Part shown: positions 3,149-49,068 of the stretch, piece after piece
Position numbering within the stretch: position 1 is the stretch's first letter
How the letters are laid out: every line of letters begins with the position of its first letter
From: Acholoe squamosa
Lineage: Eukaryota; Annelida; Polychaeta; Phyllodocida; Polynoidae
Assembly: GCA_949317995.1 (NCBI GenBank)
Contig: OX439036.1
Coordinates: 21,116,854-21,180,853 of the forward strand
Reading direction: 5' to 3'
DNA length: 64,000 nucleotides
Notes under the pieces: model-generated
Databases searched by the model: none
Told to the model about the DNA's origin: nothing
What the model saw: only the letters and a program-made list of their open reading frames with translations
Translations under genes and position numbers: made by a program

Positions 3149-6100
3149 ATGTCGGGTAGACGACCCACATCAGCACGTCCTACCCCTGCTAGGCGATCAA
3201 CGTCTAGCGAGAGACGGGGTAGTGTCAGCGAGACATCATCTCGTAAAAAGATGGAAGAAATGGAGCATGACTGTAAAGTGGCCTTTCTGGTGGTGGTTGA
3301 TGATCTGGATGATAACCTCACATCCAAGGAGCAACTCAGGAATGGTAATTTTATCTTTCTAAAATACATAATTTTACCTCTCTAAAATACGTGCAGGGAT
3401 GTCTGATTTCAGAATTTTCAGAGGTTGAGATGACTATAGATCTACCGAATGTTCTTTTCTTAGGTCAATTTTTTGTAGTATTTTACAATGAATTCGGAAC
3501 TTCTATGTGTACATTCAGAATTTTTCACACACCCTGTACGTGGTCACAGGTACAGATATACCTTGACAGTATTCATCAACTTTGGTCAAATATTTGGCGT
3601 TCCTCCCATTTAGAGCAGAAAATAGTGTTAGCATGGATGTTAAGTACTGTCGAGAATACTTAAGGTAACATTATTAGATATTTAGTAACTGATTTGTTTT
3701 TCTTGTAGTGCTGAACCAAACTGGACGGAATCCATCAAACCGCGTATTAGAGAAGCATTGGAAATCATCCACAGGTAAGTTTGTACTGTTGACCTATGGA
3801 GTTATGTGCAGGAGGCTTCTCCTTTTCATTTAATGTTTTGATAGGTTTTTATGTGAAGCCAGGTATCATAAAAATATGATTTTTTTTATATGTGAAAGAA
3901 AGGAGACAAATTTTTACCATGAATGAATTACATTACTGGAGTTGCTCTGATTTTCAGATTCCCTCTCATTTGAGGATGTCCTGCAGATCGCGCGACAAAT
4001 TCCTGTCACAAGTGAAGATGATTTAATGAAGGCCTTCCGTAAAATCGACATCAATGGAGATGGCTTTATCTCTAATGATGAGCTTTTCAAAGTGATGACC
4101 ACTGTAAGTGTCAAGTTCTGTGTTCAAGATATGAATTAAAAAAGTAGAACTGGCCTTGATAGTTCTTGGTATATAAAGATGGTCTTAGTGATTATTTGCA
4201 ACCAGATTGCTTTTGATTTAAAATTGCAGTTGAATGCTACCAGTAGGAAAAATCTATGTAAGTTGAACTTTATTGTGGTAAGCTTTCTAAAGCTTGTTAT
4301 TCAATTCTTTTTAAAAAGTGTTTGATAATTAGGATGTTGGTTATGTTATAATTAAATGAGTTGAAAGTTGATCAAGTATATCTATGTGTATAAAACTGTG
4401 GCATGGTTATTGAGTATTACATTTTGATGTGTGAAAGAGAGGAGACAAGATGACGCGTAAGGAGGTCCAAGCAATCATTGATGAAGTGGATGAGAACAAA
4501 GATGGCCGCCTTGATTACAAAGAGGTAAAAAATACCATTTCACTTTTTAATCTGATCTAGAAATATTGGTTTATAAGTACTCATCAAATTAGATCTTTAA
4601 ATCATCAATCTTTATATTTATATATTTAATCAAAGAAACGTCACTGTCATAATCTCACCTTCCTATCTTCCTTTTCATATATCAGCTTTCATTTTCTATT
4701 TCTTTTCTTGAAACTACTTTCTTCAATCAATCAATCAATCACTGTGTCTTATAAATTATAATTATAATCTGCATCCTTAATTCTTTACTAGTAGTTTGGA
4801 TTATCGCAATCAATTCTTTTCTTTTGCATACTGTATACAGAGAGGACAATTTATGTATGAAAAGGTATCACCAGCTTATTTCTTTTGATTCTTGTTATGG
4901 ATATTCTCTCCCCCAGTGCTTGAAATGTCCCAATTTGTTATCATTGAATGTGATAGGACATCAGTGATTGTCAAAACATAGTTGTATGTCTTTTATTGCA
5001 ATCGCCTTTGTATATGTTCAGCTGATCCTTTGTTTCTCCTATGAACAATTATGTTCACAAATATTGACAAAGTAGTAATTTGATTTTTAAGAAATGAAGC
5101 AACAAGTGTTACATTGACCCTGTCCCTCTTGCAAGGTTCAACATTCATTTAGTAATAGTTAACCCTCACCCCTCAGTGTAGGTCATTGTAGGACTATGGC
5201 CCACAATCATTGCCCAACATTAGGATATGCTTACAGGCTCTAATCCCACAGAGGTATTGGTCAACTGTACGGTTATGTGACATAACCTCTGCATGTTTGC
5301 ATATGTCTTGTATATTTCTTCTTGACGGTGATATAATGCCAGCCATTGGTTAAGAATGAGTAGGCCGAAGCATGCATGCCTAGCAAGATCCCTTAACAAT
5401 AACATAATGCACAAATCCTTGCATTTCTTTTGCTGGGACAGACCATACTCTGAAATGTTTTCTACCCGGAATGAAAATCATATATTTTCTATTATCAGTC
5501 ACCATCTGTCTTTTCTAGATTTTATGGCACATGTTCCAAGAGTGGCAATACCGTTTAGCAGTAGAAATTCCAGTTATAATCAATTTTATAGCATAACAAA
5601 ATATACATTTGAAGATATATTTATGTAGTAAAGTATGCCGACCCCCCCCCCCCTCCCCTAGGTGTACTGTTTTCTTCTAGTGCATTTAGCGCAGGTTGTT
5701 CAGTATTGTTGATCAGTTCTAAAGGCATCGACCTAAACAGCTGTATGACATGTCAAACTATTATAACGTCTGCTCGTGTTAACTCTGGTACCAATATTGT
5801 TGCTTAGATGTTAAATCTGTATTTAGCATTTCCTTAGTGAAAGCTGTATTCAACTTTTCTGAAATAGCACTCTGGGATGATAGCTTAATTGGAAGGAAAA
5901 TTGCCCTGTTGGTCACGTTTGATGCATCTTACTAAGCACGTTCTATACTAAAGTCCCCTAAATGGCCCTAACCCACCACAGAATGCCTATAGCATGGTAT
6001 CATGTGCACCATATATAAAACAACTGTAAGGAAATGACTATATAACTTGATCAGACAATGGTGTAATATAGGTTTGGTCTTTTTCAGTTTCTGTCACCCT

Positions 6101-6634
6101 CCTTTTCCCAACTCAAAAAAAGAAAATGTTAGATCTAGATCCTGAGTAAAATCATCGCATGTATAAAATAAAAGTACTAGCACGAAAATGAGTGTTGTAC
6201 TGGAAAAGTAAATTCTCTCGTATGAGCCGCGGCTAGTACGGGACCCAAATAAAAATGGAGCTTATTGGAGGTTTCCAATGTCAGGGTGCGGCTCATATGA
6301 GTGTATTTGGCAGTATAGAGCAATACTTTTTTTTATAGAGCAATACTGAACAATTTCCCAATTTTCAAGCCCTAGGTGAGGCTTAAAGGTTATCCACAAG
6401 CTCAGGGTGCGGCTTATTTGAGGGTTGGGCTTATACGAGAGAATTTACTGTAGTACCACATAATCTATATGTGCATGATTATGTATTCAGCTGACTTTGT
6501 TCAAATCACACTTTTCCAGTTCTGTCAAATGATGTTGGCAACACAAGAGGAATGTGGCAAGATTGCCAAACAACGCTATGAAAAGCGGCGTGTAAAACAA
6601 GAAACACAACCCAAGTCAAAGACAAAGTCTCCAA
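3149..6634 (+). CDS. EFCAB7: EFCAB7 N-terminal EF-hand pair (exons 1-5)
   Basis: Exon 1 encodes a basic Ser/Arg/Pro-rich head (MSGRRPTSARPTPARR) followed by a helix with VAFLVVVDDLDDNLTSKEQL. Exon 3 carries EF-hand 1, loop DINGDGFISNDE at residues 118-129, with D, N, D, S and E at the calcium positions. Exon 4 carries EF-hand 2, loop DENKDGRLDYKE at residues 154-165, also complete. Exon 5 finishes the second exiting helix (FCQMMLATQEECGK) and passes into a Lys-rich tail. Both loops look able to bind calcium. Exon phases are 1, 1, 0, 0, 1. The exon 4 acceptor was placed at 4437/4438 because only that AG keeps the frame; several other AGs are close by. Confidence 0.9.
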
Positions 6635-9600
6635 GTAAGTACTTATTTAGTCAACTGAATTTGTCAGTCATTAAAGTGTATGGAAAGGGAGAGGTTGGCC
6701 AACACCTTTTAGTGGCATTTTAATGGAGGGGAGGGGCAGTTCTTACCTTTTATCTTGTGGGCGGGCACTTTTTGGAGCTTTTATGTGATTCATTTCGCTC
6801 TATGAGAGTGGTATGTTATGAAAATTTTAAACCTTAACAAGACTGATTTTTCTCCCTTTATGTACATGCAGTACTTTCTCTTTCATTTTTTTACTCTCTA
6901 TTTCTTCATCCAGTCTCCATTGAATCTAGGGCTCCCTTTTCTTTTTCTATCATCTATTTTTTTTTCTCTTTTTGATAATTGATGTATCCCTGAAAATATG
7001 AAGTGTGTAATACATAAACCAACTTATGTTTTTAGAGTGGTCTTACATATATATAGCTGTCTTTATAGAAAAGAAAATGAATAGCTGTGGCCATTGCATT
7101 TTTCATATTGTATCAACCTATGTTTGAGAGACTAATGCATTGTTTACCCTCTCAGAATGTATGTCAACCCTCTTGTTGTTTCGTCTCAAATGTTTATGGT
7201 TTTATTGTACACAAAATATATTATTTCTAAAGTAGTCATCCCACATTTCATTTGTTTCTGTGGGGACTGTAGGGAGATATCATTAAAATATTTCAGAAGA
7301 AGCAAATGGATCCACAGCCTCTTTGAGTGATGAAACTTCACACCGGAGTAAGAATTCTTCGCTTTCTATCCCCACCTGATAACTACCAACCCATTAACAT
7401 TCACCAATAGTTTTAAGCAGCCTAGAAGGCTACATTGTTTCAGATTGCTGTGCCATGCTTCCAGTATTTCCACCACTGAAGTTCAATTCATCTCTGTACA
7501 AATCAATTATTGTAAATACTGTCCTCCACTGGAACTGGAATAAATGCATTGGACAGGGAATGATGTGAAGCAGCATCAGAGACTTATAATGGTGCCCAGC
7601 CAAACAATATTAGAAAAGTTTTCATGTGACCAGACATCTATGCACTGATGTCCAACTTCTGATAAGGCTTCAGTGGGAGACATGAAAAGACAAATGTATA
7701 TACCATGTTACTCTGTGGATTCACTTTGTACTTAGATCTATCACAGATAGGCTGATATCAGAGATTTCACCTTAGATATAGTCATACCTCTACAAACCTA
7801 AGGGCCCTTTACATATCTCAAAGAGAGATGTGTGGGAAATAATACACTTAAATGATATCTTTAGAAGCATAGTAGTTACAACAGCAATTCCCCTTTAATG
7901 GTGTTATTTTTTTTTACCTAGATGTGCAATGAATCAGTCGATTTTACTTTACTCATAGGTGATAGAAATACTTGATTGGCATTTCTGAGCAGATTCCTCT
8001 CATTAGATACACCATCTGCTTAGTATAATAGCCATACGTTTCCAACCATATAGATATATTGTATATATGTGCCAGTTTAATTTCCTAAAGATTAGCATGA
8101 TGGCTTCATGATATCAGGGGTTTTAGATTGCTAGAATAGGATAAAAGAACATAATCATTATCAAATATTTGGGGACCACCACCACCACCTAGTCCTTATG
8201 TTATGATTTTGTTGCTCTGTTTGGTAGACTCAGTAGAAAAACAAGAAAAACATGATCCAGTTGGGTCTCAAGTTTCACTGAAGTCCACTGCCTCATCTGC
8301 AAGTAAATCCAGTAAGTTGACTTAAAAAAGAGATAAACTGTCTTTGGTAGTTTGCAGACTTCTGGGTTTATCATATAGCAACCTCTTATATTTTTAAACC
8401 TTGATTGGTACCCATTCCTGAGTTGTAGATATGAGCATTGTAAAATTGTTACCACATTTACAAAGTCTCCATAATGGATCTTTAATGTACATAAATGCTG
8501 AAGGGATATAATTTGTGTATTCAGATGCATGGTGTGCTAACTTTTAATGCAAATAAAGAAAGGCATTGCTGAGTACTTCTTCAAGGGTATAAGTAACATG
8601 CAGGTGCTCATGTGAATTCTATTGACCCGTATTACAGAAAAATCAGAAAAGCGCTCGGGTTCACTAGCATCTTTACGTTCACCAAGCAGTGAGCGACCAT
8701 GTAAGTTACCCTGAGCCGTTAGGTATATGGTATTGCAGAAAGCAGCATAGTATGTTATAACTTTAATTTTTTCTATTTTGTTTTCTGGCCATATCCCATT
8801 TGACCCTAAGAGATAAAAGATTAACTATTTATTGTACATCATATTAATCCTCTCAATCGAAACTTGTCTCAAAATCTTAGTATTACACTTACTAGATCAA
8901 ACAGCATGTAAACCTTCTCCAGGGTGTTAAATGTTTCTGCTTTTAATTTTAATCTATACTATTCCTTAAACGTTAAGACTAAAAGAACAGTCTTCTTTTT
9001 TCAGTTGAATATTATCTATCTTAAAATGTGTGGTTAATATCGGTTTATTGTAATCAGACACTTTGGTGGATCTGCAGGATAAACATTAATACTTTTTGAT
9101 TTTACAGCAAAGGTAGAAAGTGAAAAAGACAAAATGGGATCCCAGACTTCTTTACGCTCTGCGACCGGTCAGTTTTTCAGTGTTGTAGCCTTGCTTTCCG
9201 CCTTCCTGAAAATATCCCGCCCTAATAGGCTGTGTGTGGTCTGCCTGATTCCCACAGGATTTTGCGACTAATACAATATAGCCAACCCCCTAATGTCACT
9301 ATACTAATGACCCTTGGTGATTGATTCCCCTAACCCATGACTGACAACCAATTGTTTCAAGTTTCTTTCAGTCGCTGCTGTGAAAGTGATTTGTTTCTAC
9401 TCAAACAGTTATTTCTAGTTTCCTTTGTGTTAATCTATTCCCATTCATGTGCTTATGAAGCAAATGACCTGAAATCAGGGACTCCAATGTACCATAAATC
9501 CCCGGTCATAAGCCGGCCCCGGTCATAAGCCGGGGGGTGAGTTCAGGGAAATCCTATAAGCCGGTTTTGGTGTCAAATTTTTCCCATTTTCTCTTTATTC

Positions 9601-12600
9601 TATAGTAAAAAAAACACCGGTCATAAGCCGGGGGGGGGGGACTTTGGGAAAAATTTAGAAGCTGGTTTGGGCCCAAAATAGAAAAAAAAATCCGGCTTAT
9701 GACCGGGGATTTACGGTAATTGTGTGGGGTGGGTGCATTTCTGCATACATGTATTTAGAGAGGTTGTGTGACAGTTGGACAGATCGGCGGTTCGCCAGGT
9801 CTGCCAATTCGACAGAGTTTCACATTTCATGAGACAATTCGACAGGACCATACAACAGATTCAGAAGCACATCAAACCATGATTGTATCCCTCTCTTCTT
9901 ATAGTATTTGAAAGGACAACAACCCTAATGATACTGTCCCTATGCCTTAGAATCACGGAATGACAAAAATATGTTTTTAAAGTTTAAATAATTAATTTAA
10001 AAAGTTATCTCAACCTGTCGAATTGTCCCAAAAATCTGTCCAACAATCCTATCAAAATCTGGCCAATTGTCCTGTTGAATAGTCCTGTCGAACCGCTGAT
10101 CTAGCGAACTGTCCGTTCCCCACTTAGGTTTATATTCTAAGCTGTTGATATAAACTAATATTTGAGGTCCTGGTACACATATAGTTGCCATGTCTGTCCA
10201 GCAGACAGTGTATTTAGATAAAGCTAATTGAAAATGTGTTGAACATGAAATACCACATCCCAGTATCCATTGGGCAAAACCCTTCCACCCCATAAAGCAG
10301 ATTTGCACTCAAATTCCATAGAGTATCAGAAATCCAGGAGTGAAAGGGTTGATTAAATCACTCTTCATCCATATAAAGGGACAGCAGTAACTCTATAGCA
10401 TTGAGTATACTGATTTACTTTTTGTGACACCAAGGATAGCACTTTGATATACTGATGAACTCAATTAACAGAGTTTTTCTAACACAGGCTTTGTCAAGAA
10501 TGAGCATATTGCTTCAAGCAATCAGACCAAGAACCTTTTAGGTGCCTAGCTGAGATATTCCCTAGGCCAGTATTGATAGTTCCCTTCGTCTTATTGCGGA
10601 ATCATCATATTGAAACTGGTACTCATCGTGGCATGTGTCATCAGTGCATTTCTCGCCAATACATGTACCAGATAAAAAAAATGGCTATCGGTTATATAGC
10701 ACCAGGTCTCGCCACGAAGGAATACTGTATTCATTCTAATAAGCGCACATGCTCTAATAAGCGCACACCCCACCTTTTGGGACCTCAAATCATGCAAATG
10801 CAGTGCAATAACAAGAGATTTTGAGGGCAATAACAACGACTTTTAGGGGTTTTTTTCGGGTGGCTTATTAGAAATAATTTTGTATTGATGTCTTGGGAAT
10901 CTAACAATTAAATTTCCACACATGTGCGCTTTTTAGAATGAATACGGTAGGCTATTTGTCTTGATCTGAAACTGTTATTCAAGTATGTGCACTTTTGTAT
11001 TTGACTGACACTCAAGACGTGGTTAGTAGAGTCTTGTTAATCCCAGTTGTGTGGCAGACTATATTCACCACAAGTGTTGATCACACTCTCATCTACTAAC
11101 CCTAAAAATGCACTTTTGTTGTGCAAACTCATTATATGTTGCTCTTTCAAGATATTTCTGTAAGATATGCACAAGTTACCCATTCCAGTGAACTGGATAA
11201 GTTATAATGGATGAATTAAGAAAAAAGCAATGAGATAAGAACCAAAGCAATATTCATCTGGTCACTGATCCCACACTTTGATTGATAGGTTCACGGAGTG
11301 GGCGAAGGACTCCACGAGGGTTAGAAAGCTCAATTGATGCAATTCCTACCCCACGGGCATTACCCCGCCTAGCCCCAATAGAGTCTACCAAGTTAGACCT
11401 CCCTGAATCAAGTGATTCTGACTCAATTGAAGATGAGACAGAAAGTAAGTGTGTGAGATTTGTGTGCTGTGCTATCAGTTGAAACCCATTTGGTGGTCAT
11501 GCTTAGATCTCTCCAATAATGAAACTCTACTTTGTCTCTTGTTTGTTTTTGTTTTTTTCAATAGAAAGAAGCAAGAGCTGGTGTTTTTCAGAAGTGAGGT
11601 GAAGTGTTTGTATTGATAAGTTGAGCTGCTGGTTCATTGTTTGATATAGATATGACAATGTCCCATCTTCACTAAATGACTATGAGTATATATCTGTCTC
11701 AAGATATCAGTGGCGCTTATGCCTTTGAGTCCCAAACTGCCATTTCACATGCTGTAATTGACAGTTATATGAAAATATAGGTGTAGTAAAGGAAAATTAA
11801 AATCAGATATAACCCACCCTCCCTCCTTCAAGCCATCTGTTCTTATTAGAAATGTTTTATATGAACAGAAAAACCATCAGCCAAAACCGGGTCAATTGCC
11901 TCTGCCCGATCACGCCGCTCACTCGTTGAGTCTATCATGAGTAAGTTTAATCTGGAGCTTTAATCAAGAGTGTCATCTGATCTGGCGTTGGAGGTTGTTG
12001 ATGTTCAATAATAATAATTACATAGGGTATACATTGATGTATATATTCCCATCTGTCTGAGTATTTAGCTGTGATATTTGAATTGATTATCTTCTAATTG
12101 CATGTATTGGTATTTTAACCAGTTCATATAGCCACCTTGTCCCCTGGTTGAGATATCCATTGAACTCCTACCATTAAGATTTTGTTCTCTGAATTTGGTG
12201 TCTGATTTCCCTCTGTTGTCAGTCAAATTTGTGGTTTTGTGAGATTTACTCCCCAAGGCAAACTAACCCTTGATGATCTGAGTCCCTTTTGGTTAAATAT
12301 CTGACAGTGATTGACATCTTTAGCATTACATTTTTCAAATCGTTTCAAATAGATAGATTTAAAAAAAAAATATCAATTTGATTCAAGTTTGAAAATATAC
12401 ATTCTTTTGAACACAATGTAGGTACATGCAAGTTGAACAAAGAAATACATATAAATGATCAAAGTAAGAATGAACTAACATAAACTTGTATAAATGTTGC
12501 TGTGTGTTAGGTCGAACGCCGCGCCTCACTCCTCGCAGCTCACTCTCTGCACGGAAACCTTCCAGTGCTCAAGCTGCTAAAGATAGCTCTGATGACTCAA

Positions 12601-15374
12601 TAGCTGAGGAGGTGTCAGATGAAGAAGATAAGAGTAAGGAGAGTGTGGCAGTGTATAATGTTTAAGGGTTTCAAGTTGCAGTGATTGTTTTTTCTCTTAT
12701 AAACATCAGCATATCTGATCTGCACAAGTATACTTCATGCAAAATAGATGTGGACTTTGATTATTTTATTTTTTTGTGTGTACCTGACCCCTTTGTCTCA
12801 TTTCAGACATGGGAAAGATGGCAATGCCCCCCCCCCCAGTCAATAATAAGAATTGAATTGTGTGCCTTAGTGTACTGATCTAGTTTAAGACATTTTTTAT
12901 GTAGTCACCTATACCCTACCCCAAAACCCTTGCAGCTATACTTGAGAGAAATGGGTTTTTGTTACAACCAGGAAATGGAAAGCAAATAGATGTGTGAGGT
13001 GCCCTGCATGAAATGTATGGGTAAATTATTCACCTACATAAACAATGATATTAGCCATACATTTGCTCACCATTTGTGAGTAGTCTGTATACAATATTAT
13101 GAATATGGTGAGAAGACCATTGTACTAAATAGCAGACTATCAATTGTTCAGCTCATACCAATTGCAATATGAAAATGCATAAGGTCTATCCTGTTATTGA
13201 GAGGCCAACTGCAACTCATAGGAGTCTGATTCCATCTTATACAAGTCGTTGTCAAGGTTGTCCCTCCCCCCTTTCTTTTTAGATTATAATATCCCAAGGT
13301 TTGAGTGCACATAGGCAGAGTTTTATAAGGCCAAAAAAATTGTTGTGTTCAGGTAACGGGGTCGAAAAAAATTAGGGTAGATAGCTAGGGGAATTTTTTT
13401 ATTTTGGAGAATTTATTTTAGACTGGCTTACATCGTGAAAAGAAACGTCCATGTCTTGATAAGTCGAGTGCCAAAATATCAGATTTTCTCCCAAAATGCC
13501 CATAAAAAAAGTTAGGGTAGGGCCAAACAATTAGAGTAGGTAGCATAACCTGAACCCAACAATTCTTTTTAGGGCTAATACTGTCAAACTCTCAAAGGTT
13601 AGTGGATCTGAGAGGTTGTGGTACAAGGTATCTGATGAGAAGGTTAGAATTGGACTTGATGAAAGGCAGGGGATTTAATTGCAGGACTCCAGTTAATCAT
13701 TAATACCGGTATGCTGTAAATGATAGTGTAGGAAATATACTAATTACATCTGAGGGTTCGTTCAAACACACACCTAGAAGTAACATCTTCATCTTTCCTT
13801 ATATTTCAACTTTGAAAATTTCGGTATCGGTTAAACTCAAATGTGTGTTTTTGATACCAGTAGTAAACCAGTACTTCAGTATTTCTTTATACTCCTTTAA
13901 ACGAATCAACCAAATCCTTTTTTTCATACCTGTAGATATTTTGTGTGTTTAGTTATAGTATTTCTTTTATATTCTTCACTACAAGGGATATATGTTTGAC
14001 CAAACTGTTGAGGCAAAGCCATTATCAAATAGTAAACTGATAAAATGAAATTTACATTTTACAGCAATTTTTCACATTTCATTATTCTTTAAAGTTTATT
14101 CAAATATTTCTTTAAACAACGTTTTTCGTTTGTTGGTTTGTAATTTTTGTTTTCGTTTTAGCACTTCAGTATTCCTTTTTCAGATCGGAATAAACTTAAC
14201 GGTGATACTGCCAGTAACAAAGCAAAAGACATAAAGGTGGCGGAAAAAGACACAAACGCATCAGAAGTAGATAAGAAAGTTAAGGATGAGTCTCTCACAG
14301 AGGAGGTAGTTAAGAAAGACATTATAGACAAGAAAGTAGAGATACCAGAGGAGAAAAGTTCACCCCCACCCTTGGCTCTACAAAGCACAGGTGAATAGCA
14401 TTGTGCTCTGGAGATGAGCTGACTTCGTCCAGATAACAGTTGTTATAACAACCTATGCAGTAAAAAGTCATATCCAAAGAATATTGAAGTCATCACAAGA
14501 GCATATATTGAGTTATCATAAAAGTTTAAATAATTAAGCATAAGAGATCTTAGAGTGTAATTACTAAATGTATGTTTGGAAATTTTACACCCTAAACCTA
14601 CTGGATAGTTAGCCAAACCTCTGCAACCCGAAGATAAGTCATTACATGTCAATAATGCAAAATTGCAGGCATTTCAAACAACTATTTCCCAAAATTTCTC
14701 TCGATCTTTCTTGAAAATAATCAGAATTAGCAGGGAGTGGAATAAAAACACACCTTGGCTTCAGAAAGTGGTTCCACCTAGTATATGTTGTTTATGGAAC
14801 TCTTTATTTCAGATAAACCAATCTCAAAAGCAGGTGAACCAGAAAAGAAAGATAAACAAAGTAAGCATCTAGCATATTTGACCTGATCTCATTTAGTGGT
14901 AATTTTATGCCAGTTATCTTCAAGGAGATATTCCTGGTTCAGGCATTATAGTCGACGGCAAATACTGTAGAACCTCGATTATATATACAAATCTAAGATT
15001 TACTTTACCTTATACTCGAGGTACTTCACATGTACCTTTATGAAGTTTAGATTCGGTCCATGTAATTTATAATCAACTGCCGGTAAAATTATTTTGATCA
15101 AGTATCACCTCTATACTTTTCAAATAAAAAGCTTCAGAAATTACAAAATAGGTAACGACCCTAAAGCCCCGTGTATAAGACGCACCTTGTATGTGAGAAT
15201 AACCCCTTGCTGTGCCTTATAAGATCAGCAAAAATAGAGGGTGTCTTAAGTTATTTTGCATTAGGTTAGTAGTAAAGTGGTCTAAAACAAGCCCCTAGTG
15301 CGCTCTATAGGAGTCTCTCAAGTGAGGGGTACATCTTATATGCGAGGTGTGTCTTATACAGAGGTTTTATGTTA

Positions 15375-15438
<64 letters not shown>

Positions 15439-18400
15439 TATATATCACTGCGATTATGATAGTTCTGAGCAAGTTATGTCAAATTAGACTTACTAAATTT
15501 AAGTATGTACCGTACCAATACTATATGACCAAATGATGTTTGAGGACTATAGAACAGTTATCTTGTTGTCGGTCTTAGGTGAATCTGATGACGATGATAT
15601 AGTGGTTGGGTCACAAGTGTCTGTACGCAATGGCCTAAAGTCTGCAAAGAAGGGTAAGGGACAAATTTTTGGAGGTGGTTTCTTATGCTATTCACTTTGT
15701 ACAAAACCCAACCACAATGAAGAACAGATGAAAGATTTTCTCCCATTTTCTGATTGTACAAATGTTGCTTTTTGGATTTCTGATTACTTTCATAAAGAGC
15801 AGTTCATTGTGATTTTTTATATTTCACATCCCCCCCCCCTTACAAATTATATTTGCATGGTTTGGATGTGATAGAAACTTGGATTAGCTACCTGCTATGC
15901 AGCATATTAACACAGTGCATTTGATTTGTCATAACTTTAAACTACCGTAATCTCCCGCGTATAAGACGCGTCCTCTACGCCAAACAAAATGCTGAGGGGT
16001 CATATAGGATGTACTGAAATTAGGGGTGCGTCTTATACGAGGGGTAATTTTACCATAGAAATGTACTGGATTTACAAAATTGGTACCTAAGAGGTGCGTC
16101 TTATACGCGAAAATGCTTCTCCCAGGAAGGGTGTGCGTCCTATACGCACAACGCGTCTTCTACGCGGGAGATTACAGTATAATATAGTTTGTATATTTGC
16201 ATGGATGCAGATAAAAGAATCGCATGCCTATTCTAATAATTGCAATGGGTTTGAATGCTCCAAAAGGATTTGACTATTATTTCTATGAACTTGAAGAAGC
16301 CTACTAATGGGATTCAGAGATGATATACTTAACCAGTTTCCTTCATCTGGCTTCATAGACCTATTCATGTAGAAGCAGTGGTAGTTCTCACAGTGGGCTA
16401 TGCATAAATATGTTTAACATAATTTAGTGTTTAGTGTTAATTGAGAAATATATAACATAAGATTATGTTATTATCACACCTGATTATCCATTTTTTCTAA
16501 CATATTTATATGTAAATGACATTTATATGGTGTATATAGTAAAAATAAGAAAAACCTGTAGTTAATTGTGTTATGCACTAGGCAATATTGAGATATTACT
16601 AGTTACTAGTGTAAATAATAGAAAATTATAGCACTGTCTCAGTCCCAACCCTGAATTCTAAGTCTCATAAAAGTATACCTATTTATAAAACCTTTCAATT
16701 TCATCTCCCCCTATAGAAGCTCCCAGTCGATCTTCATCACAAACATCGCTACGATCGGCTAGGTCGGCCACAAAAAGTAAGCCCCCCCCCCCAATGTGTT
16801 CTTTTCCCACAAATGTGTTGTGTATTAACTCAAGAAGGTGATTTCATGTGTTTAATAACCAGCCTTTATCTACATTTGGGCACGATTTCACAGGTTTCCA
16901 TCCATAGGCCCGTAGCCACCCAGATTACTCATAGTTTAAGAATGTAGTGAACAATACAAATAAAGTCAGAGAAGTTTAACTTCCATACCCACTCAACAAC
17001 AAAAAATACGTCAGTTAACATCAAAAAACCGTTTTTAACGTTTTAAAACGTATGTCCATGTTGGGGAGCCATTAGGGAAACGTTTTGAAACGTTGTTTGT
17101 TGACTGGGTATTGTACTGTAATTATCATCCTAGATGAAATGAGAAAAGAAACTTAATATGCACCCCTGTCATCTGCGTATAGCGGGCAAAAATCAGCTCA
17201 TATGGAGTAGTCTTAATATTTAGAGATAAAAAAGAAACAGCTGTTAGTGAGCCCCATAGTTTGGGGATTTTAGAGAGGCCTTACTGCTACATGGACCAGA
17301 TTTTCAATAGATTATTGATTTCACTACATATACCTCATTTCAAAATACCCATGTATGTAGAAATTATTTCTATGACAATAAAAGAGGTGATTACAAGGGA
17401 GAATATTTACATTTCCAAACGGTATTTCACAGACGTTAACTATTTAGAGCCTCACCTGTAAGCTGAATGCCTACTTTGAAGGGGGAAAAATTGCTTCTGT
17501 GTAATAAAGATTTCCCCACAAAAGGGAGGATCATAGAGAGGATTTTATAATGTGCCCAGTGTAGAGATTTTCACAAGGCCTACAACCCAGTCAGTCATAA
17601 TACTACCTATTACACAATGGCTATGGAGACATTTGCCCTACACCTTGTAATAACTTCTTGTGTATGGTATATTTTGTGTACAATTGTATGTGTATACTAA
17701 CAAGTTACCCCTAAATTATTTCACTTTAGTTATTCAAATGTTCCCACCCGACTCGGTTAAGAGACCATGTCCTTTAAATATTGTTAGGTATAAGTGAGCA
17801 ATGTAAAAAGGCAAAGCTAAGTCCTGTGTTTTGCTAAGTCTTGCTTTAGATGAAGTCATCCTGTTTTCATGCATACTTCACAAAGTGTAGTCAGAAAGAA
17901 CAAGTACTGTTGACAACTGAAGTTTACTTCTAGAGTAGAAAACATAGACAGGATGGGATGATATCCGCATGCCTTTCATTAATTTCTACAGTTAGGGGCT
18001 ACACAATGCAATTTTTATGTCTATTTCTAAGGTATAAGTTGAATGCAGTATTCATAATATTGACTTAGTCGTGGTGTGTCGCTAAGTAACATTGACGTAG
18101 ATACTAATCTTATCCAGGGTCAAAAACGTACAGAAGATGTGTAGTCTATAACATTAATCTCTGTAGATCACTGTTCAATATGATGCTGGAAGTGGTCTGT
18201 TCATTTATCTATGTGCTGACTGCTGGTGTGCTTTGAAGATAAGAATCTCTGAACAGAAATCCTCCATTGGTTGAAATTAAGCAACGTGTATACATGCGTG
18301 ATCTTAATAGGTAGGTGCTCATAGTCTTAAGAACCTTTTTGGTTTTGAATGTGCAGTTTACTCTCATCATCTTCTCTTCGGCGTGGCTACTTTAATTCTT

Positions 18401-21400
18401 GACCAGTTTAAATGGAAAAGGGATATACACTTTTGCTTTATATTCATATAAAGGTTATGTATCTAAATAATTTTGAGATTGTTTTATCAGACAAATTAAA
18501 GATTAAAAAAGAAATTATAACAGAGTTTAAAAACATATGTAACAGAATTCCAAATTTGTTAAACATTTATCCTTTTTTTTTTATTCTGTGGCTTATGGTA
18601 TTTTGGATTCATTTGGTTTAGGGCCATGAGCTGGAGGGAAGCTGAGAGAGAGTAGCCGAAGTCGAAGATGGGATGATGAGAGAACTGTGATGACTGCACC
18701 ATATCTGTGATAGACTTGAAACAGACTATATCAACACCTACCACCCTTGGGGCCCTGACACTGTCTTCTTGCAGTGATTCCTACAGGGTCATCCTATGAA
18801 CAGTATGATTGTAGTTGCTTCAAGAAATTGTTCGCTCGTTAGAATTTGAGGTCCCGACCTCTTACTCTAAGGAGACTGAAACCACACCATGGGACCTTGA
18901 ACTATACTTTCTACTTGTGTCTATGAACACTTACAAGGGAGTTTTACATATTTAACAGGAGCATGCACACTAAGAAGCATCATGAGGAACAGTGGAGTAC
19001 AGACTTTATAAGGAGCCCAAATAAGGATCTGAATTGATAACTGTAGTATCTTCTCTAGATGAGATCTGCCAAATTGTTTTTTGATAAATTATATACATAA
19101 GAAATTTCATTATTTAACTACATTATTGGTGTGAGTGTACTTGGAGTGAAATGAAGTTAGGAATCTGCTTTATGGATACATGACACTTTTAAAGTGTGTT
19201 TTAAACACTTTAGGTATTGGCTGTCTAATTACTTCAGTTCATAAATGTAAATCACTGAAGTTGATTAGAAATGTCAAAATTGCCCCTTTCCAGACTTAAA
19301 TTTTAAGCTTCTGGGACAGTTTCAGAAAGAGAGTGTGGCAAGCTTTGTCATATCTTTTATCCGACTGGATTTACCAAACTCTGCTGTTAACTTTATTGAT
19401 ACATAATGGGACATGTGATAATCATTTATATCTGTGATGGGTTCCTTGTCAGGTCATTCAATTTAGTTAACTAACTTTGATATATTAAGTGAGTGGTTAT
19501 GTAGATAACCTCCCTCTGTCATCAGATTACATGGAGGCTCACTCCATTATTCCCCCATCAACCATTTATATAATTGATATACTGTAGTATCTCGCATGTA
19601 AGGCGCAGCTTATCTGCGAGGATTTAGTTCTATCTTGATCTAGAAGGAGGACACCCAAGACCTTTCATTTGATATATTACACTTTCTCTATTCCCTACAG
19701 CAGCATAGGGTGTCTTTTTTTCTTTTTACCTTCATTGAGTAGGATAGATGTTATGGTATAATAATTTTTTTAGGCAAATTTACAAACTCGTGATTTGCCT
19801 TATACACGAAGTACTATATATACGGTATATCTTTTTTATGAAATCCAGTAATGTCCATGTAGTTGAGCATATTGTGGATTGTTGAATTGAGACCCAATAA
19901 ATTATGTATTCTTGTCTATTTTGAGTAGATTTTATTCCTTACAGGCAGGTTTATGCGTAACTATATTTTAGGGTTTTATTCATTACAAATATGTTACAGT
20001 AAGATATATAGGGGGTAAGGAATAAGATTTACTAGGATGTAAGGCAGCTTTTGGTTATAAGTAAGCAATTAGATGGAATAGATAGAATTACTGCTAATTT
20101 TAAGCAACCTTTGTATGCCACTTTAAAGCAATTTTTTTTATTTCAACTTATCTGCAGGGTTTTTTCTGTTTTTTTCAGGCCATGAAAGACTGTTCACACC
20201 CTATGATAATAAAGTCAGTAGTCATGAAATGTCATTTTGATAAAATTTTTGAAACAAGAGAAGTCATATTTTTGCTGAATGCTTCCTTGCAGGTGATTCT
20301 GAAAATGGTGGTCCACCAAAACCTAAGCCACGTAAACCAAAGGAGAGAGAAAAAGACCCGAACGAGCCCACTCAGTCAGGTAGCAGACATTATCTCCTGC
20401 ACGGCTACATTACATCTCGCTTCTATAATTACCAGTACCCATAATTAACTTACTCTCCTCACCCTTACATTAACTTTCCACTGCAGAACCATGGTTTGAT
20501 GCTCAGCTCTACGAGGGCTGTTAGTATGAAAAGGTTTTGGTATAGGTAGCCAATATGATACAACTTTTAATTGGCTTCACTCCCATTATGAAAATTATGT
20601 CTAGTGTAGCTAAACCTGTCATTTATTTGACAGGATTGAATATGGTGGTGGTGCATTTTGATTGGCTGATATAATTATATGCTCAGAGGAAGCAAGTATA
20701 CCTTTACTGGAAGGGATGTTATATGAATTACCTTAGATTATAAATGCCTATGCATGCCAATAAATATCACTGCCATGTATATCATAACATCTATCACCCA
20801 CTCTATATAAGGCAGTTTATTTGGTACATGATGGCCTACACACACAATCCCAGCACGCTTCTTAATTTGGTTCAGCCCATATGAAACAAATGGTTTAGCA
20901 TCTTATTGAACTCATCAATTAGTTTCACTAGATTAATGGTTTTGAGTTGTTGACAGGGAATACGATATACAGGCTCTATACATGGGGTTATATATTCCAT
21001 TACCAATATACCTTGAAATACAAACTTCCCTGGCCCTTCTTTGAAGGGTCTAAATCTCTTCTGTTCTATCCCCTCTGTGTCTGATGAAAATGTGTGTGGG
21101 CACTGACAGATGCATTTATCCACCAATTGAAGTGTAATGTAGTTTCATTGTCATGAATATGACTGTGTCTGTCGAAATGACATTAAACAACCATAACTCA
21201 CTCATATTCAAATGCTGAGGTGAAGTTTCAAACTATTGCATATCTGTCTCTACACTGCACACATCTGGATAAGTGGAGAGAGAAAAACAATCAAAACAGA
21301 CACAACTCACTTTACTGTGAGTAGCTCTGTTAAGTTGTCAACAAGAAATCATGCACAGGTATATAAGGCCGGTTTGACTAAGCTGATGGACACAGAACTA

Positions 21401-24400
21401 ATGTGTAATATTATCTTGATTCATATATTTGATACATTGCATAGAATCTCAGATAAAACCAACATCCCTACCCCTAGTTGACAGGTAACATCATTTAAAA
21501 TGGCCTAGACATATTTAAACTAGAATACAACCAATCAGAAAACTCCCATTTAGCAATTTGGTTGTTAAGAGTTTGTTTCCTAGATGAAAACTTCCATTGA
21601 TCTATAGGTTGTCATAAAGGGGCCAATGGTGCTGTTATCATCCAGATGGCACTTCTCAGCTCAAATACAGTGAGTCTGAAATCCAAATAGATGCTATCAT
21701 AATATAAGGCATTCCTTGTACATGGGAGTTACCCAAGTAAAGGTGTGCCTTATACAGGTAGTATGTCCTGAAATCAGAGTGCGCTATCTATAATAGCATT
21801 TGTTTGAACATAGCATACACCCTAATGTGTCCAGTATACTATCGTCTTCTGTTAGATTAAGGAGGGAAGATTAAAAATAGGGTATCTGCATCAACAAAAG
21901 ATATTGGTGAACTCATGAGGTAGGGAGATGTTATATTGTGTGGATGTTATATCGTGTGGGAAAGGGAATTTATAGAAGGGTAAGTACAGGAAATCTAGCT
22001 AAAGATAATAGGTGTTGTTTTCTTTGGAAAAGATTCATAGTGTCTTATCGAAATGCTTTATTGAAAATATCTGCTGATACAAATGATTCATCATGGTAAG
22101 GGGCATGGAATAAAAGATATTGTAGCTATAGTATTGTAGATCCCTATGAAGGTGCTGCTAAGAATGTGTCATGTGATTCCCCATACTGCTAATGACCTTT
22201 ATTTAGTGTTTAAGTTTTGCAAGTTAAGCATGTAATCCTAATTGTGAATATTGCCTTCTTGAATAGCCCATTGTAATCAATTTTGATACCTGAAAGCCCA
22301 ATGATAACATAACATCCAGTTATCGCTGACTGATATATGTACCTCAATGGACGGAAGTGTGGTTTTTCCCTGCAAGATTGTTTAAATACATGATTACAAG
22401 TACAAGTAGCGTAGAGGTAGTTAGGAGTATATATGGCTATATATGTTTTAATGTATGAGTTACCTTTTTATCCATTACATATTGACTCAGATATACTTTA
22501 ATTATCAATGTGCATAATCATCTTAATTGTGGTCTCTTCATTTTACCAGGAAGGAAGAACCTCAACAATTATTACCCAATTTTTAAAGAGAACATTCTTA
22601 TCATAAGGAGGTTCTGCATTCTAATCTTAATACACTTTACCTTTTAGATGATGTAAAGGCATCTCCCAGACCAAAAGACAGAACTAAATCTCCTGTGGCC
22701 CTTAAAAAGATAAAACTGCCTGAACCAAAACGACTAAAGGTTTGTAACTTTTTGTGATCTATCCAACTATTCAGTATGATACATTACTTGTTATCACTTT
22801 AACTGCCATAGATATCTTCTGAAAAAAAACAAATCTAAAGTCATGTTTGCTTCTTCCTGAACAGGATTGGGAGATGACACACAGCAAGGGTTGTTTTTTC
22901 TTTGAGGATGATGGCGCCATAGTTTCCCACCAGTACATGCTGCAGTTGTCAAAGGACTCCTCAGTTTGGCTGACCATTGAGCCTTTCTTACTCAAAACAG
23001 GAGGTGATTTTTATTTGACTTTACTTAAATGGGCTTGGGGTTTGAGAAATAAAAAAGAAAGATGTGAGACCATACAGACTGCACCTGCACCAGAGAGGTA
23101 CTGTAACCTCAAAAGACTAACCCAATTCTCTCAACAAGCAGGCAAGTCCTCAATAGATATATGTGAATACCAGAGGGGACTTATCTGTAGTTTCTTTTTA
23201 AAAGAAGTGAATAGTCTTTTCAGTCATTGAATTCATAACTTATGTGTTCTGCTTTTTTATCAAAAAATTATTATGAGCAATTTTTATGCTTCAGGTGATT
23301 TGAACAGTGCACGTGAGGTTGGTGCACCACCCATTGACACAGCAGCCTTTATTTTGCGGGAGAAGCCGGATGATGAAGGTAACACCCTTGTCACATTCAC
23401 AGAGCAAAGAGATTCCAAAGGGGTAAGTAGTTCTTTAATAATGCACACAAAAGAGTTGGCAGTGACTTATAAAAATTGATAAATATTTGTTAGCAAGGGA
23501 TCTTTTTATACATTAAACCAAGTGGCCATTTTATCAGGTTTATATCCTGATGTTTCAAACGAATAAAGGTCTTCTCTTGCAATGCTTTTATTTCTTTTTT
23601 TTTTCTTTTTTTTTGGTTTATTTGATCTCAGTATGATCTGTAAGATCCACTTTAAAGTTTACACTTCCTGTAAGCCTAGTTTCGAAATAACAATAAGTCA
23701 GTTCATAGTAAAATCTGTTTGAGATATTTGGAAAAATAAATTTTTGTTATATATACACTATATGAACAAGGGTTTATTTCAAAGCTGTTTGAGATGTGTT
23801 TATGTAACAAAGCATTATTATTTACTCAGCGATATTGTGTGCGTTGTGACCTGGAGAAAGGACGTTATGTGATTCTTCCCTTCACCACTGGGTGTCGCTT
23901 TCGTCAGCGGAAGTCAGAACCAAAGAATGAAGCAAAACTTGTGAAAGAGGAAAAGGATGATAAATATGTTCTAACTAAGGCATTCAAGTAAGCTATTATA
24001 TGTATCATATGGTGACACTTCAATTTTTTTTATTCCTATATGTATTATATACTATTTCCATGTAGATTAACTTATATAAGTGTTCTTCCACAACCTGACG
24101 ACAGAATAAGGAAATATAAAGACTTGGTATTGTATGATTATCTACAGTACCTCTGCATTATTGACTATTCTTAAGAAATATATCATATGCTACATTTCAT
24201 TTGCAGTTTTTATATGATATAAATTGTAATTTAAGCAACTTTGAAAAACATGTATACATATGTTTATAAAACCACCAAAATGACATGTATTTTTATTTTG
24301 TCTTACTCTAGGGAGACATTGTCAGATATATTTGAGATATGTGACTTGGATGGAAATGGCTTGATGAACAGAGATGAGTTCAACTGGTTTAACATCAGGA

Positions 24401-26247
24401 CAAGTGGAGAGGAAGTTCAAGATGATGAGTGGGATGTTGTTGAAGGTACATATGACAAGAAAGAAAACCCTTTACTATTTTTCACTTCCAGTATGACTCA
24501 CCTGCACAGTAATCTATACATGACTGCAATCAAATATGGAATAATGTTGGTAGGTAACATATTGCCAGCAGAGTAGGGTTTATTGGGAATATTTGTTATT
24601 GTTTGTAAGAAAATAAAACCATGGATAAGTACATTCAATTAGATTATAACATTTATTTTTCTTTCATAGATAATGTTGAGCTGAAGAACGGTGAGATTAC
24701 ACGGAATGGCTTCATCACCTTGAACCAGATGGAGGCAGAGGATAACCAGGGTGACACAGATGACCTATGGGTGACCCTCAACAACATGGGTTATAACAAG
24801 GGACTCATTCAAGATGAGGTGATTTTCTACTTTATCTTGTGGTATATACTGCCCTAGATACAGGTGCAGGATGAAATACAAACAGAAACAACAAAAAACA
24901 TGGACATGATTATTCTTGACATGGTGAAGTTATAATGAGAGTGATTTTTATAATATAATGACATTTTACAGTTACTAGAGGTCACATAAGGGCTTACATA
25001 AAGAGATATGTTTTTTTAATATTGCATGCCATTACATAGGCACATGGTAACCATGTTTTGTTGAAATGGCTGTATGGAGATACATTTCTTTGTTTGCAGG
25101 CTGTTCCATTCCTTGTTGAAGTGTTTGCTGAGGATTGCAGGCCAACTCTAAAAGTATCAGGCATCAATCCCGCACAAAATAAGCTTGAACGAGCTATGGC
25201 ACAAATTGTCACGAGCAAGGTAAATATACTTTTTAATTTCTGTCAGCACACCTGTACTACATATCGCACAAGAGGAAATTCACAATGTAAATTTATTTTC
25301 TCTCCTCTTTTTTTTTGTGATGACATAATAAGAACAAAATAGTTGGTACCATTGATTAGTTGGTGTTGTAATTTATAATTTTACTATAAATCACAAAAGA
25401 AAAGTCATTGATTAAATGTTATGATTAGCTCTGCCTGTAACTTAAGACTTAGATATGTTTGTATCTGCTGTAAGTCAGGTATGTCATGCTAAACCTATTC
25501 TGCAGGGGGAGATGACCCGAGTGAAGAATATGAAGGACCTATTTCTATACACCTGGATAAACGACTTCCGTGCTTGTGTTGTGGTAGAAAATAAGGTAGG
25601 TGTTTAGTACATGTAGAGGGAATGGAGAATAGGGAAGTCAAATATGTATGCTTTTAATGTCATATTGAGTTAGAAATGTCACACTTCTGCCAAGTACAGT
25701 TGGATAATCTATTTATCCCCGATCTATCCTTTTCTTAAGAACATGAGTTACATCAAGTGATTGTATTCCTATTTCAGAGTCGAAGCCGTGTCACATTAAG
25801 TATTGACTGCAGTAAGAGTCGAAATTGTTCAACTAATCGCAAAGACCTAGACTTTACCTTAGAAGTCTCACCAAAATCAACAATGGTAAGTGTAACTTTC
25901 AAATCAATCTATTATAGTAAGAATAGACTGAACAATTTCCTCACCTACTGTCTGTGGTAGATAAAGGTATTGAAGTAGAGGGTTGTAAAATACAATAAGA
26001 CTCCAATTAGAGTGTATTTAATGATCACTGACACTGTTTCTGCTATGTTGATAAAGTGTGAATCAATTTCCCTGGACATGTATTGATAATATTTATCTAT
26101 TTTTTTTTTGTAAAAGACAAGTATGATATACCAGTAGATATTCAAATCTTCATGACACTCTTTCTCATCTAGGTGGGTCATCACATTTTGCCTTCAAACG
26201 AACGTCAAGAATGGTGCCTACGCTGCGTTGATACAATCGTCAAATGA
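3149..26247 (+). CDS. EFCAB7: EFCAB7 orthologue, EF-hand ciliary protein, 27 coding exons, 962 residues
   Basis: Exons seen: 3149-3344, 3709-3774, 3958-4103, 4438-4524, 6520-6634, 7297-7347, 8228-8311, 8638-8700, 9108-9167, 11289-11444, 11869-11940, 12511-12633, 14184-14390, 14813-14860, 15579-15653, 16717-16776, 20293-20379, 22648-22739, 22865-23003, 23295-23422, 23830-23987, 24312-24445, 24670-24818, 25100-25219, 25506-25595, 25778-25885, 26173-26247. All have AG/GT borders; total 2889 nt with an unbroken frame. The ATG at 3149 is chosen because an upstream in-frame ATG lies within the polypyrimidine tract. The protein has an N-terminal EF-hand pair, a long disordered linker, then the conserved C-terminal half with KGCFFFEDDGAIVSHQY, DLDGNGLMNRDE, DLWVTLNNMGYNKG and SPKSTM motifs that match my memory of vertebrate EFCAB7. 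The known vertebrate role is anchoring the EVC-EVC2 complex with IQCE at the base of the primary cilium for Hedgehog signalling. The same role here is inferred. Confidence 0.93.
3395..3545. mobile_element. Degenerate CAGGGATG-ended MITE in EFCAB7 intron 1
   Basis: It begins CAGGGATGTCTGATTTCAG and ends near CACACCCTG. The interior resembles the cleaner copy at 51837-52001, including shared ATTTTCAGAG, TTCTATGTGTA and TTCAGAATT words. The open frame through it is incidental. The CAGGG ends suggest a hAT-type non-autonomous element; old and worn. Confidence 0.5.
6199..6453. mobile_element. TACTG/CAGTA-ended MITE, 'ATAAGCC' subfamily, in intron 4
   Basis: The left side has GTAAATTCTCTCGTATGAGC, and the right side has GCTTATACGAGAGAATTTAC followed by TGTA, an imperfect inverted repeat of over 20 bp. 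The interior repeats GTGCGGCTTAT-like words. It is one of the diverged subfamilies of the TACCGTA family described at 15943-16179. The rest of intron 4 (4525-6198) shows only a short TCAA repeat near 4727 and nothing gene-like. Confidence 0.6.
7297..22739 (+). CDS. EFCAB7: EFCAB7 disordered linker: twelve phase-1 modular exons plus exon 18
   Basis: Exons 6-17 are 51, 84, 63, 60, 156, 72, 123, 207, 48, 75, 60 and 87 nt. Each is a multiple of three and each starts and ends in phase 1, so any of them can be skipped without a frameshift. The encoded residues (about 204-565) are rich in Ser, Lys, Arg and Asp/Glu, with no predicted fold. A short motif recurs: GSTASLSDE (exon 6), GSQVSLKS (7), GSLASLRS (8), GSQTSLRS (9), GSIASARS (11), GSQVSVRN (15), SSQTSLRS (16). 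Acidic stretches occur in exons 10, 12 and 15 (SSDSDSIEDE, SDEEDK, SDDDD). Exon 17 is Pro/Lys-rich and exon 18 returns to phase 0. Exon duplication and diversification is the simplest reading. The Arg/Ser motifs could be kinase sites, which is inference. Confidence 0.85.
9490..9718. mobile_element. TACCATA/TACGGTA MITE, 'CGGTCATAAGCCGG' subfamily, in intron 9
   Basis: The ends are TACCATAAATCCCCGGTCAT and the matching ATGACCGGGGATTTACGGTA, a TA-flanked inverted repeat of about 20 bp with one mismatch. The word CGGTCATAAGCCGG recurs inside on both strands. Length 229 bp. Confidence 0.75.
9769..10124. mobile_element. Probable MITE with GACAG/CTGTC inverted ends in intron 9
   Basis: The left end has GTTGGACAGATCGGCGGTTCG and the right end has the imperfect reverse complement CGAACCGCTGATCTAGCGAAC then TGTCC. 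The word TTCGACAGGACAATT and its complement repeat in the interior. The borders are approximate and I do not recognise the family. Confidence 0.5.
10723..10949. mobile_element. TACTGTA/TACGGTA MITE, 'CTAATAAGCGCAC' subfamily, in intron 9
   Basis: The ends are TACTGTATTCATTCTAATAA and, inverted, TTTAGAATGAATACGGTA. The interior repeats CTAATAAGCGCACA. Length 227 bp. It has the same layout as the 9490-9718 element, with a different core word. Confidence 0.7.
13326..13577. mobile_element. MITE with ~30-bp inverted ends in intron 12
   Basis: The left end AAGGCCAAAAAAATTGTTGT continues GTTCAGGTAAC. The right end reads CATAACCTGAACCCAACAAT then TCTTTTTAGGGC, its imperfect reverse complement. TTAGGGTAG recurs inside. 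The family is not recognised. The rest of intron 12 looks like plain intron. Confidence 0.6.
14964..15377. mobile_element. Fragments of pogo-like / TATAAGACGC elements in intron 14
   Basis: TACTGTAGAACCTCGATTAT at 14964 resembles the terminal motif of pogo-type DNA transposons. Between about 15165 and 15376 the words GTATAAGACGCACC and GTCTTATACAGAG place another TACCGTA-family copy. Neither has two clean ends. Confidence 0.45.
15378..15431. repeat. (TA)n microsatellite
   Basis: About 27 uninterrupted TA units directly follow the element fragment above, in intron 14. Confidence 0.95.
15943..16179. mobile_element. TACCGTA/TACAGTA MITE, 237 bp, 'GCGTATAAGACGCG' subfamily, in intron 15
   Basis: It starts TACCGTAATCTCCCGCGTAT and ends with the inverse CTACGCGGGAGATTACAGTA. 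The interior is built of alternating direct and inverted GCGTCTTATACGC words. Two other copies (35991-36227 and 42039-42275) have exactly the same length. The TA at both ends fits Tc1/mariner-pogo target use (inference). No transposase is present. Confidence 0.85.
16988..17108. mobile_element. Small CCCACTCAACA/TGTTGACTGGG MITE with AACGTT words in intron 16
   Basis: 121 bp with CCC...GGG ends and TA on both sides. The interior is AAACGTTTT-like repeats. The TIR and the AACGTT-rich body match the larger 34213-35186 element in style, so the two are probably one family. Confidence 0.6.
17109..20292 (+). other. Large EFCAB7 intron 16, no gene seen
   Basis: Read on both strands, this shows no conserved exon. 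The only structured parts are the inverted-repeat element at 19580-19827 and short open frames that lack splice context. Confidence 0.5.
19580..19827. mobile_element. TACTGTA/TACGGTA MITE, 'ATGTAAGGCGCA' subfamily, in intron 16
   Basis: The left end is TACTGTAGTATCTCGCATGT. The right end is GTACTATATATACGGTA, preceded by GCCTTATACACGAA. It is worn, but keeps the family layout of two TA-flanked ends with an ATAAGGC word facing inward. 248 bp. Confidence 0.5.
20990..21215 (+). mobile_element. SINE-like element with L2-type tail in intron 17
   Basis: It shares with 32050-32222 and 48742-48920 the series CTTCCCTGGCCC..AAGGGTCTA..CTATCCCCTC..GGGCACTGACA. It ends TGTCGAAATGACATTAAACAA and an ACTCACTCA tail, the kind of 3' end that L2-mobilised invertebrate SINEs have. 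It is the most diverged of the three copies. The 5' limit is unclear. The rest of intron 17 holds nothing gene-like. Confidence 0.55.
22865..26247 (+). CDS. EFCAB7: EFCAB7 conserved C-terminal half (exons 19-27)
   Basis: Exon 19 begins DWEMTHSKGCFFFEDDGAIV, close to the vertebrate sequence (SKGCFFLEEDGEIISHQY as recalled). Exons 20-21 continue a beta-rich domain ending at the conserved TTGCRFR. Exon 22 carries a third EF-hand, loop DLDGNGLMNRDE at residues 749-760, then FNIRTSGE. Exon 23 holds NGFITLNQMEAED and DLWVTLNNMGYNKG. Exons 24-27 make the C-terminal domain, with AVPFLVEVFAEDCRP, ERAMAQIVTSK, SPKSTM and the ending NERQEWCLRCVDTIVK before TGA at 26245-26247. Phases run 1, 0, 2, 1, 0, 0, 0, 0. 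No truncation or missing key residue was seen. Confidence 0.93.
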
Positions 26248-32049: not shown

Positions 32050-32222
32050 GCGGGCTTCCCTAGCCCACTTAAAAGGGTCTATATCTTCTCTTTTCTATCC
32101 CCTCAGATATGTGTGGTGCACATATGCACGGGCACCGACACATTCCCCTGTGAAATTGTGTAATTAGTTTTCGCCATGAATTTGACCTTAGCTGTCGAAA
32201 TGGCGTTAAACATCTATTACTC
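32050..32222 (+). mobile_element. SINE-like insertion at the end of the gag fossil
   Basis: It starts GGGCTTCCCTAGCCCACTTA, has CTATCCCCTCAGATATGTGT, and ends CTGTCGAAATGGCGTTAAAC then ATCTATTACTC. The first 110 bp nearly match 48742-48850, and the tail matches 21160-21190. It separates the gag fossil from the TatD-like fossil. Confidence 0.7.
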
Positions 32223-32276
32223 TTGGCGCTTTGTGACCAGAACACCGGACAAAGAGTCAGGACACCAAATGAGTCA

Positions 32277-32760: not shown

Positions 32761-32810
32761 TGCTACCCAAAAAACACCGTATCCAAAAAACACCGAACAG
32801 GGAGTAACAC

Positions 32811-35990: not shown

Positions 35991-36227
35991 TACCGTAATC
36001 TCCCGCGTAGAAGACGCGCTGCGCGTATAAGATGCACCCCAAACTTAGCAAATGCATTTTCGCGTATAAGACGCACATTTTAAGGCTCAATTTTGTAAAT
36101 TCAGTAAATTTCTATAGTAAAATTACCCCTCGTATAAGACGCACCCCCAATTTCAGTACATCCTATAAGACTCCCCAGCATTTTGTTTGGTGTAGAGGAC
36201 GCGTCTTATACGCAGGAGATTACGGTA
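35991..36227. mobile_element. TACCGTA/TACGGTA MITE, 237 bp
   Basis: It starts TACCGTAATCTCCCGCGTAG and ends ATACGCAGGAGATTACGGTA. Same length and layout as 15943-16179, in reverse orientation relative to it judged by the TTTTGTTTGG word. Target TA on both sides. Confidence 0.85.
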
Positions 36228-48992: not shown

Positions 48993-49068
48993 GCATTGTA
49001 TACCAGCACTCTGTTTCTATACTGATGTAGTCAAATGTATCATCTGTATTTTGTATTCATAATTAAAC

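Follow-up and report, generated by a model that had tools for sequence, protein, structure and literature searches.

A run of twelve symmetric phase-1 exons, seven of them with a shared short motif, in the linker of a likely EFCAB7 gene of the annelid Acholoe squamosa

We analysed a window of 64,000 nucleotides from the scale worm Acholoe squamosa (contig OX439036.1), in which a gene that is likely EFCAB7 carries twelve consecutive coding exons, all multiples of three and all of phase 1-1, between its N-terminal EF-hand pair and its C-terminal half. Seven of these exons each encode one copy of a short motif with the core GSxxSLRS, and the pattern of substitutions shows that this core is old and maintained by selection. 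We give about even weight, for and against, to the proposal that the linker grew within a single old phase-1 intron and that its seven motif-bearing additions are copies of one exon.

The exon run and its motif

The coding model was rebuilt from splice consensus and reading frame, which gave 27 coding exons on the plus strand (positions 3149-26247) for a protein of 962 amino acids. An earlier, sequence-only reading had placed exons 6 to 17 at 7297-20379, all of them multiples of three and of phase 1-1, and the rebuilt model returned exactly these coordinates for 12 of 12 exons (Table 1). That reading had also described the phases in the rest of the gene as mixed; the other 13 introns indeed comprise eight of phase 0, four of phase 1 and one of phase 2. 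Phase-1 introns thus make up 13 of 13 in the run versus 4 of 13 elsewhere in the gene (Fisher p 0.0002). When the gene's own phases were shuffled, a run of at least 13 phase-1 introns appeared in 458 of 200,000 trials, and if a phase-1 background of 30% is assumed, the probability of a run of 13 in a gene with 26 introns is bounded at about 2e-6. The median exon length is 73.5 nucleotides in the run versus 120 for the other internal exons, and the median intron length is 718 versus 287 nucleotides (p 0.0003).

A score combining splice and coding signals ranged from 18.7 to 58.4 for the 1-1 exons of the model (13 with exon 2), with 12.8 for the best intronic candidate and 11.5 for the best candidate on the opposite strand; the exon scores are mildly circular, as the splice-site matrices were trained on the same gene. 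The intronic candidate was rejected as a decayed or missed exon copy, since its score is not clearly above that of the opposite-strand control. Exon 2 is an additional 1-1 exon beyond the linker run that the earlier reading did not list.

The linker amounts to 362 residues without any Phe, Tyr, Trp or Cys, and no Pfam match was found in it. This composition suggests that it is disordered, and its most likely role would be that of a disordered tether bearing a multi-copy motif. A tandem repeat at the DNA level was discarded, as scans for tandem and direct repeats gave no array that follows the exons.

The seven motif variants noticed earlier are borne out by the model. The GSxxSLRS core occurs in exons 6, 7, 8, 9, 11, 15 and 16, once in each and never split by an intron. 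It starts 4-12 residues after the beginning of the exon and ends 2-9 residues before its end, with core-to-core spacings of 25, 23, 24 and 21 residues where motif exons adjoin. The motif pattern, which was picked after inspection of the data, is found seven times in the linker and at most three times in 20,000 shuffles. A search choosing its own best seven 8-residue words reached a score of 183 (maximum of 2,000 codon shuffles, 173) and a sum of pairs of 407 (shuffle maximum, 348), so that none of the 2,000 shuffles attained either score; it picked exon 10 instead of exon 6. By a cruder score that sums weak matches, the linker was equalled by 80 and 39 of 2,000 shuffles. A core profile run over the gene had its seven best matches all in the motif exons (17.5-23.8), and at most 11.2 elsewhere on the gene's strand. 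Motif copies left in introns were not retained, the best intronic match (11.2, at position 21661) lying below the best on the opposite strand (13.2). The motif strings were not found in the literature searched.

Kinship among the exons follows the motif. In pairwise alignments compared with shuffles, 11 of the 66 exon pairs have p <= 0.01 (0.66 expected), and all of them link two motif exons (11 of the 21 pairs of that kind versus 0 of the 45 others). A duplicated unit of two exons, in which a motif exon would be paired with exon 10 or exon 12, was dismissed, exons 10 and 12 reaching p 0.035 among 66 pairs, which is not significant.

The core itself, pooled over 21 pairs, shows proportions of 0.77 for synonymous differences (pS) and 0.33 for non-synonymous differences (pN); choosing the core for its likeness lowers pN, whereas the saturation of silent sites is not subject to that choice. 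Where the cores have like codons, the third bases are identical in 26 of 86 comparisons (0.30, where codon usage alone predicts 0.33). Next to the core, pN rises to 0.71 in the four codons before it and 0.70 in the two after it, and 500 sets of random linker blocks gave 0.72 +/- 0.03, never below 0.61. As silent sites are saturated while the amino acids are kept and their neighbours randomised, the motif is old and maintained by selection. Selection on the motif is called for whether the exons share descent, in which case the core would have been kept, or converged, in which case it would have been made.

Origin of the array

The starting point of the proposal that we favour would be a single phase-1 intron in the ancestral gene, flanked by the exons that have become exon 5, at the end of the EF-hand pair, and exon 18, at the start of the C-terminal half. 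An exon gained within a phase-1 intron must itself be 1-1, or the frame breaks. This requirement would supply one cause for the whole run, whether the twelve exons are related or not. The seven additions would be old copies of one exon of ~24 codons, of which only the eight-residue core is still recognisable, and the other five exons would be copies whose core has been lost, or else symmetric exons unrelated to the others that were acquired within that intron. The resulting protein would contain a disordered tether whose length reaches 362 residues and in which a short motif for interaction or phosphorylation recurs as many as seven times, linking the EF-hand pair to the domains to which IQCE and EVC2 bind in vertebrates. 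The motif may have a binding role.

Serial exon duplication had been put forward in the sequence-only reading, and it is partly supported: seven exons carry one core each and make up one repeat unit apiece, and the serine codons of these cores are biased. The TCN and AGY boxes of serine are more than one step apart, and 20 of the 21 serine codons in the cores are TCN versus 33 of 50 in the rest of the linker (p 0.007). Among 780 shuffled motif sets with at least 15 serines, 4 reached the observed TCN share. These codons moderately favour shared descent over convergence. Randomly placing 11 boundaries left the cores whole, with one per exon, in 956 of 200,000 trials. Taken together, phase, size, mid-exon placement, the single core per exon and the serine codons favour duplication.

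Several results weigh against this proposal. The suggestion that the exons be aligned together with their intron edges did not yield the expected trace: no convincing similarity was found at the edges or in the introns, and 220-nucleotide flanks and whole introns gave only short, out-of-register matches (best E 0.002-0.003). With silent sites saturated, loss of intron-edge kinship is to be expected with age; nevertheless, as the edges keep no convincing similarity, we infer duplication rather than see it. Exons 10, 12, 13, 14 and 17 have no significant kinship in any of the tests. Codons that flank the core differ from one another as much as random linker codons do, which leaves room for unrelated exons each having gained the motif. 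Reordering the real exon lengths kept the seven cores whole and separate in 12,616 of 200,000 trials (6%). Lastly, the step from a single ancestral intron would be an extrapolation from the present gene.

The sharp end of the likeness at the edges of the core is also what one would expect if symmetric exons had been gathered by various routes and the motif had arisen independently in seven of them, selected by a partner or kinase. Short motifs are readily gained in Ser-rich disordered sequence, and the motif exons are not all adjacent, exon 11 standing alone. We nevertheless consider this course of events unlikely, if the most serious competitor, as it does not account for the TCN bias of the serine codons or for a single mid-exon motif in exons of 51-84 nucleotides. 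If duplicated symmetric exons had simply piled up in a tolerant disordered linker, with neither its length nor the number of motifs having a function, the longer introns, the divergent flanks and the five unrelated exons would fit the relaxed constraint, and runs of symmetric exons are known in other genes, as described in PMC4838654. A core pN of 0.33 at saturated silent sites is not expected of neutral copies this old, and we regard such functionless growth as improbable.

One unit per exon and equal phases would likewise result if one or a few old exons with a tandem-repeat linker had later been cut by introns at equivalent sites of the repeat, and the near-regular unit length noted above fits a repeat. 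Such a history would need about twelve parallel phase-1 insertions, five of them in non-repetitive sequence. The exon ends do not point to a fixed insertion site either: the last base is G in 4 of the 12 linker exons versus 11 of the 14 other exons, and most linker exons have an A there, next to a strong GTAAG donor. Later intron insertion is therefore very improbable in our view. Growth of the linker within an old phase-1 intron, with seven of its exons as copies of one, is the reading that we retain.

Exon skipping and possible function

The symmetric exons had been expected to be skippable without a change of frame. This holds for nearly all combinations, 3,832 of the 4,096 subsets of the twelve exons being free of stops, but 2 of the 91 possible junctions create a stop codon: exon 8 ends in T, and its junctions with exons 11 and 16 make TAA. 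Each single skip leaves an open frame, as does the skipping of all twelve exons, which would yield a protein of 600 amino acids.

A role of the linker in spacing at the ciliary base is a conjecture. Going further, splicing might set a valency dial, with cells choosing how many of the seven phosphorylatable GSxxSLRS copies separate the calcium sensor of EFCAB7 from its EVC2- and IQCE-binding half. This would tune the strength and distance of the hold on the EvC complex at the base of the cilium, and the lineage would differ from vertebrates in its use of cilia-dependent Hedgehog signalling. We offer this idea as a long shot. If splicing did set how long the linker is or how many motifs it bears, exon choice would tune a ciliary Hedgehog scaffold, and the array offers twelve frame-safe handles for testing it. 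Even without splice tuning, the gene would provide a readable case of a disordered linker with a repeated short motif growing in a single intron, in which seven ancient copies retain just an eight-residue core, one per exon.

Gene identity, neighbouring elements and known systems

Table 1. Coding exons of the likely EFCAB7 gene, with positions in the 64,000-nucleotide window
Feature	Positions	Strand	Length (nucleotides)	Phase	Motif (positions)	Remarks
Coding exon 1	3149-3344	+		0-1		Start codon; Ser/Arg-rich N terminus
Exon 2	3709-3774	+	66	1-1		Outside linker
Exons 3 (3958-4103) and 4 (4438-4524) with intron	3958-4524	+				Most of N-terminal EF-hand pair (Pfam EF-hand_7)
Exon 5	6520-6634	+		0-1		Last before run; followed by the first of 13 phase-1 introns
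Exon 6	7297-7347	+	51	1-1	GSTASLSD (7308-7331)	
Exon 7	8228-8311	+	84	1-1	GSQVSLKS (8263-8286)	
Exon 8	8638-8700	+	63	1-1	GSLASLRS (8658-8681)	Final base T
Exon 9	9108-9167	+	60	1-1	GSQTSLRS (9137-9160)	
Exon 10	11289-11444	+	156	1-1	No clear motif	
Exon 11	11869-11940	+	72	1-1	GSIASARS (11889-11912)	
Exon 12	12511-12633	+	123	1-1	No motif	
Exon 13	14184-14390	+	207	1-1	No motif	Lys/Glu/Asp-rich
Exon 14	14813-14860	+	48	1-1	No motif	
Exon 15	15579-15653	+	75	1-1	GSQVSVRN (15608-15631)	
Exon 16	16717-16776	+	60	1-1	SSQTSLRS (16734-16757)	
Exon 17	20293-20379	+	87	1-1	No motif	Pro/Lys-rich; donor CAG/GTAGCA, weakest among scored 1-1 exons
Exon 18	22648-22739	+		1-0		First after run; preceded by the last of 13 phase-1 introns
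Exons 19-27 with introns	22865-26247	+				C-terminal half; further EF-hand region (residues 731-828); stop codon

The N-terminal EF-hand pair (residues 107-170, encoded by exons 3, 4 and the start of exon 5) matches Pfam EF-hand_7 with an E value of 1.1e-19. Pfam EF-hand_1 matches three stretches of the protein, and residues 731-828 resemble the part of a Miro GTPase that contains its EF-hands (PDB 4c0j, E 8e-8). Calpain-III-like (ECH) domains gave no Pfam match at E <= 10 in either candidate segment. A PDB search with the C-terminal candidate segment returned no match, and with the other segment only designed ankyrin chains were present among the best 60 of 194 matches. Positions 22985-23080 (exons 19-20, residues ~632-662) match such designed ankyrin-repeat chains, with a best whole-chain E of 1.8e-13 that is summed over repeats; the resemblance, to one ankyrin repeat, is probably fortuitous. 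As Pfam detects no calpain-III-like domains in the candidate segments, the identity of the gene as EFCAB7 is likely, on architecture, rather than proved. A tblastn search for relatives on viral and prokaryotic contigs found none, and one pattern scan of each set gave 1 match in the viral and 14 in the prokaryotic contigs.

The window also contains several repeats. An element of ~237 base pairs resembling miniature inverted-repeat transposable elements, with terminal inverted repeats of ~28 base pairs, is present in three copies that are 84-91% alike in pairs, at 15943-16179 (in intron 15), 35991-36227 and 42039-42275. Partial or more diverged relatives lie near 49057-49314, 50016-50120 and 50724-50810. 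A separate stretch of ~238 base pairs in intron 9 (9485-9722), with terminal inverted repeats of ~32 base pairs of the CCCCGGTCATAAGCCGG type, has no second copy in the window. At 31726-32804, there is a retrotransposon-gag-like fragment (E 5e-4, below the curated cut-off), and a DNase domain related to TatD (Pfam PF01026, E 5e-10) comes directly after it. Near-perfect satellites occupy 41398-41701 (17 copies of 18 base pairs, 100%), 43113-43788 (6 copies of 113 base pairs), 46462-46891 (7.5 copies of 57 base pairs, 99%), 38909-39586 (2 copies of 338 base pairs, 98%) and 50148-50588 (units of 86/172 base pairs).

Human EFCAB7 has 629 amino acids. The annelid protein has 962, or 600 without the twelve exons, so that the excess roughly equals the linker; it shares with the vertebrate protein an EF-hand pair near the N terminus and another EF-hand in the C-terminal half. 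Published work describes EFCAB7 as a partner of IQCE that has two calpain-III-like domains besides its EF-hands (PMC4631099). Together with IQCE it docks EVC-EVC2 at the EvC zone, its ECH2 domain binding the Weyers peptide of EVC2 (PMC10413113). PMC9695228 reports EFCAB7 in two annelids. The literature passages that name EFCAB7 make no mention of an expanded linker, which is not proof of its absence.

Small same-phase exons in series are also found in TNNT3, the gene of fast skeletal troponin T. They lie near one end of that protein, and an origin by exon shuffling has been proposed from their common phase class, according to PMC2447309. The 5' cassette exons of TNNT3 resemble the linker exons in being a series of small exons of the same phase, with the difference that alternative splicing is established for TNNT3 and a possibility for the EFCAB7-like gene. 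Runs of symmetric exons of one phase that arose by duplication and allow frame-safe skipping are described for animals generally in PMC4838654 and PMC6335736, collagens and 1-1 exon shuffling being examples. Collagen accounts for most of the link between symmetric exons and disorder in human, as stated in PMC4838654, whereas the linker of the EFCAB7-like gene, for which Pfam gave no match, is not collagen. The linker array is thus a familiar kind of exon array, remarkable for its length and for the presence of one motif per exon.

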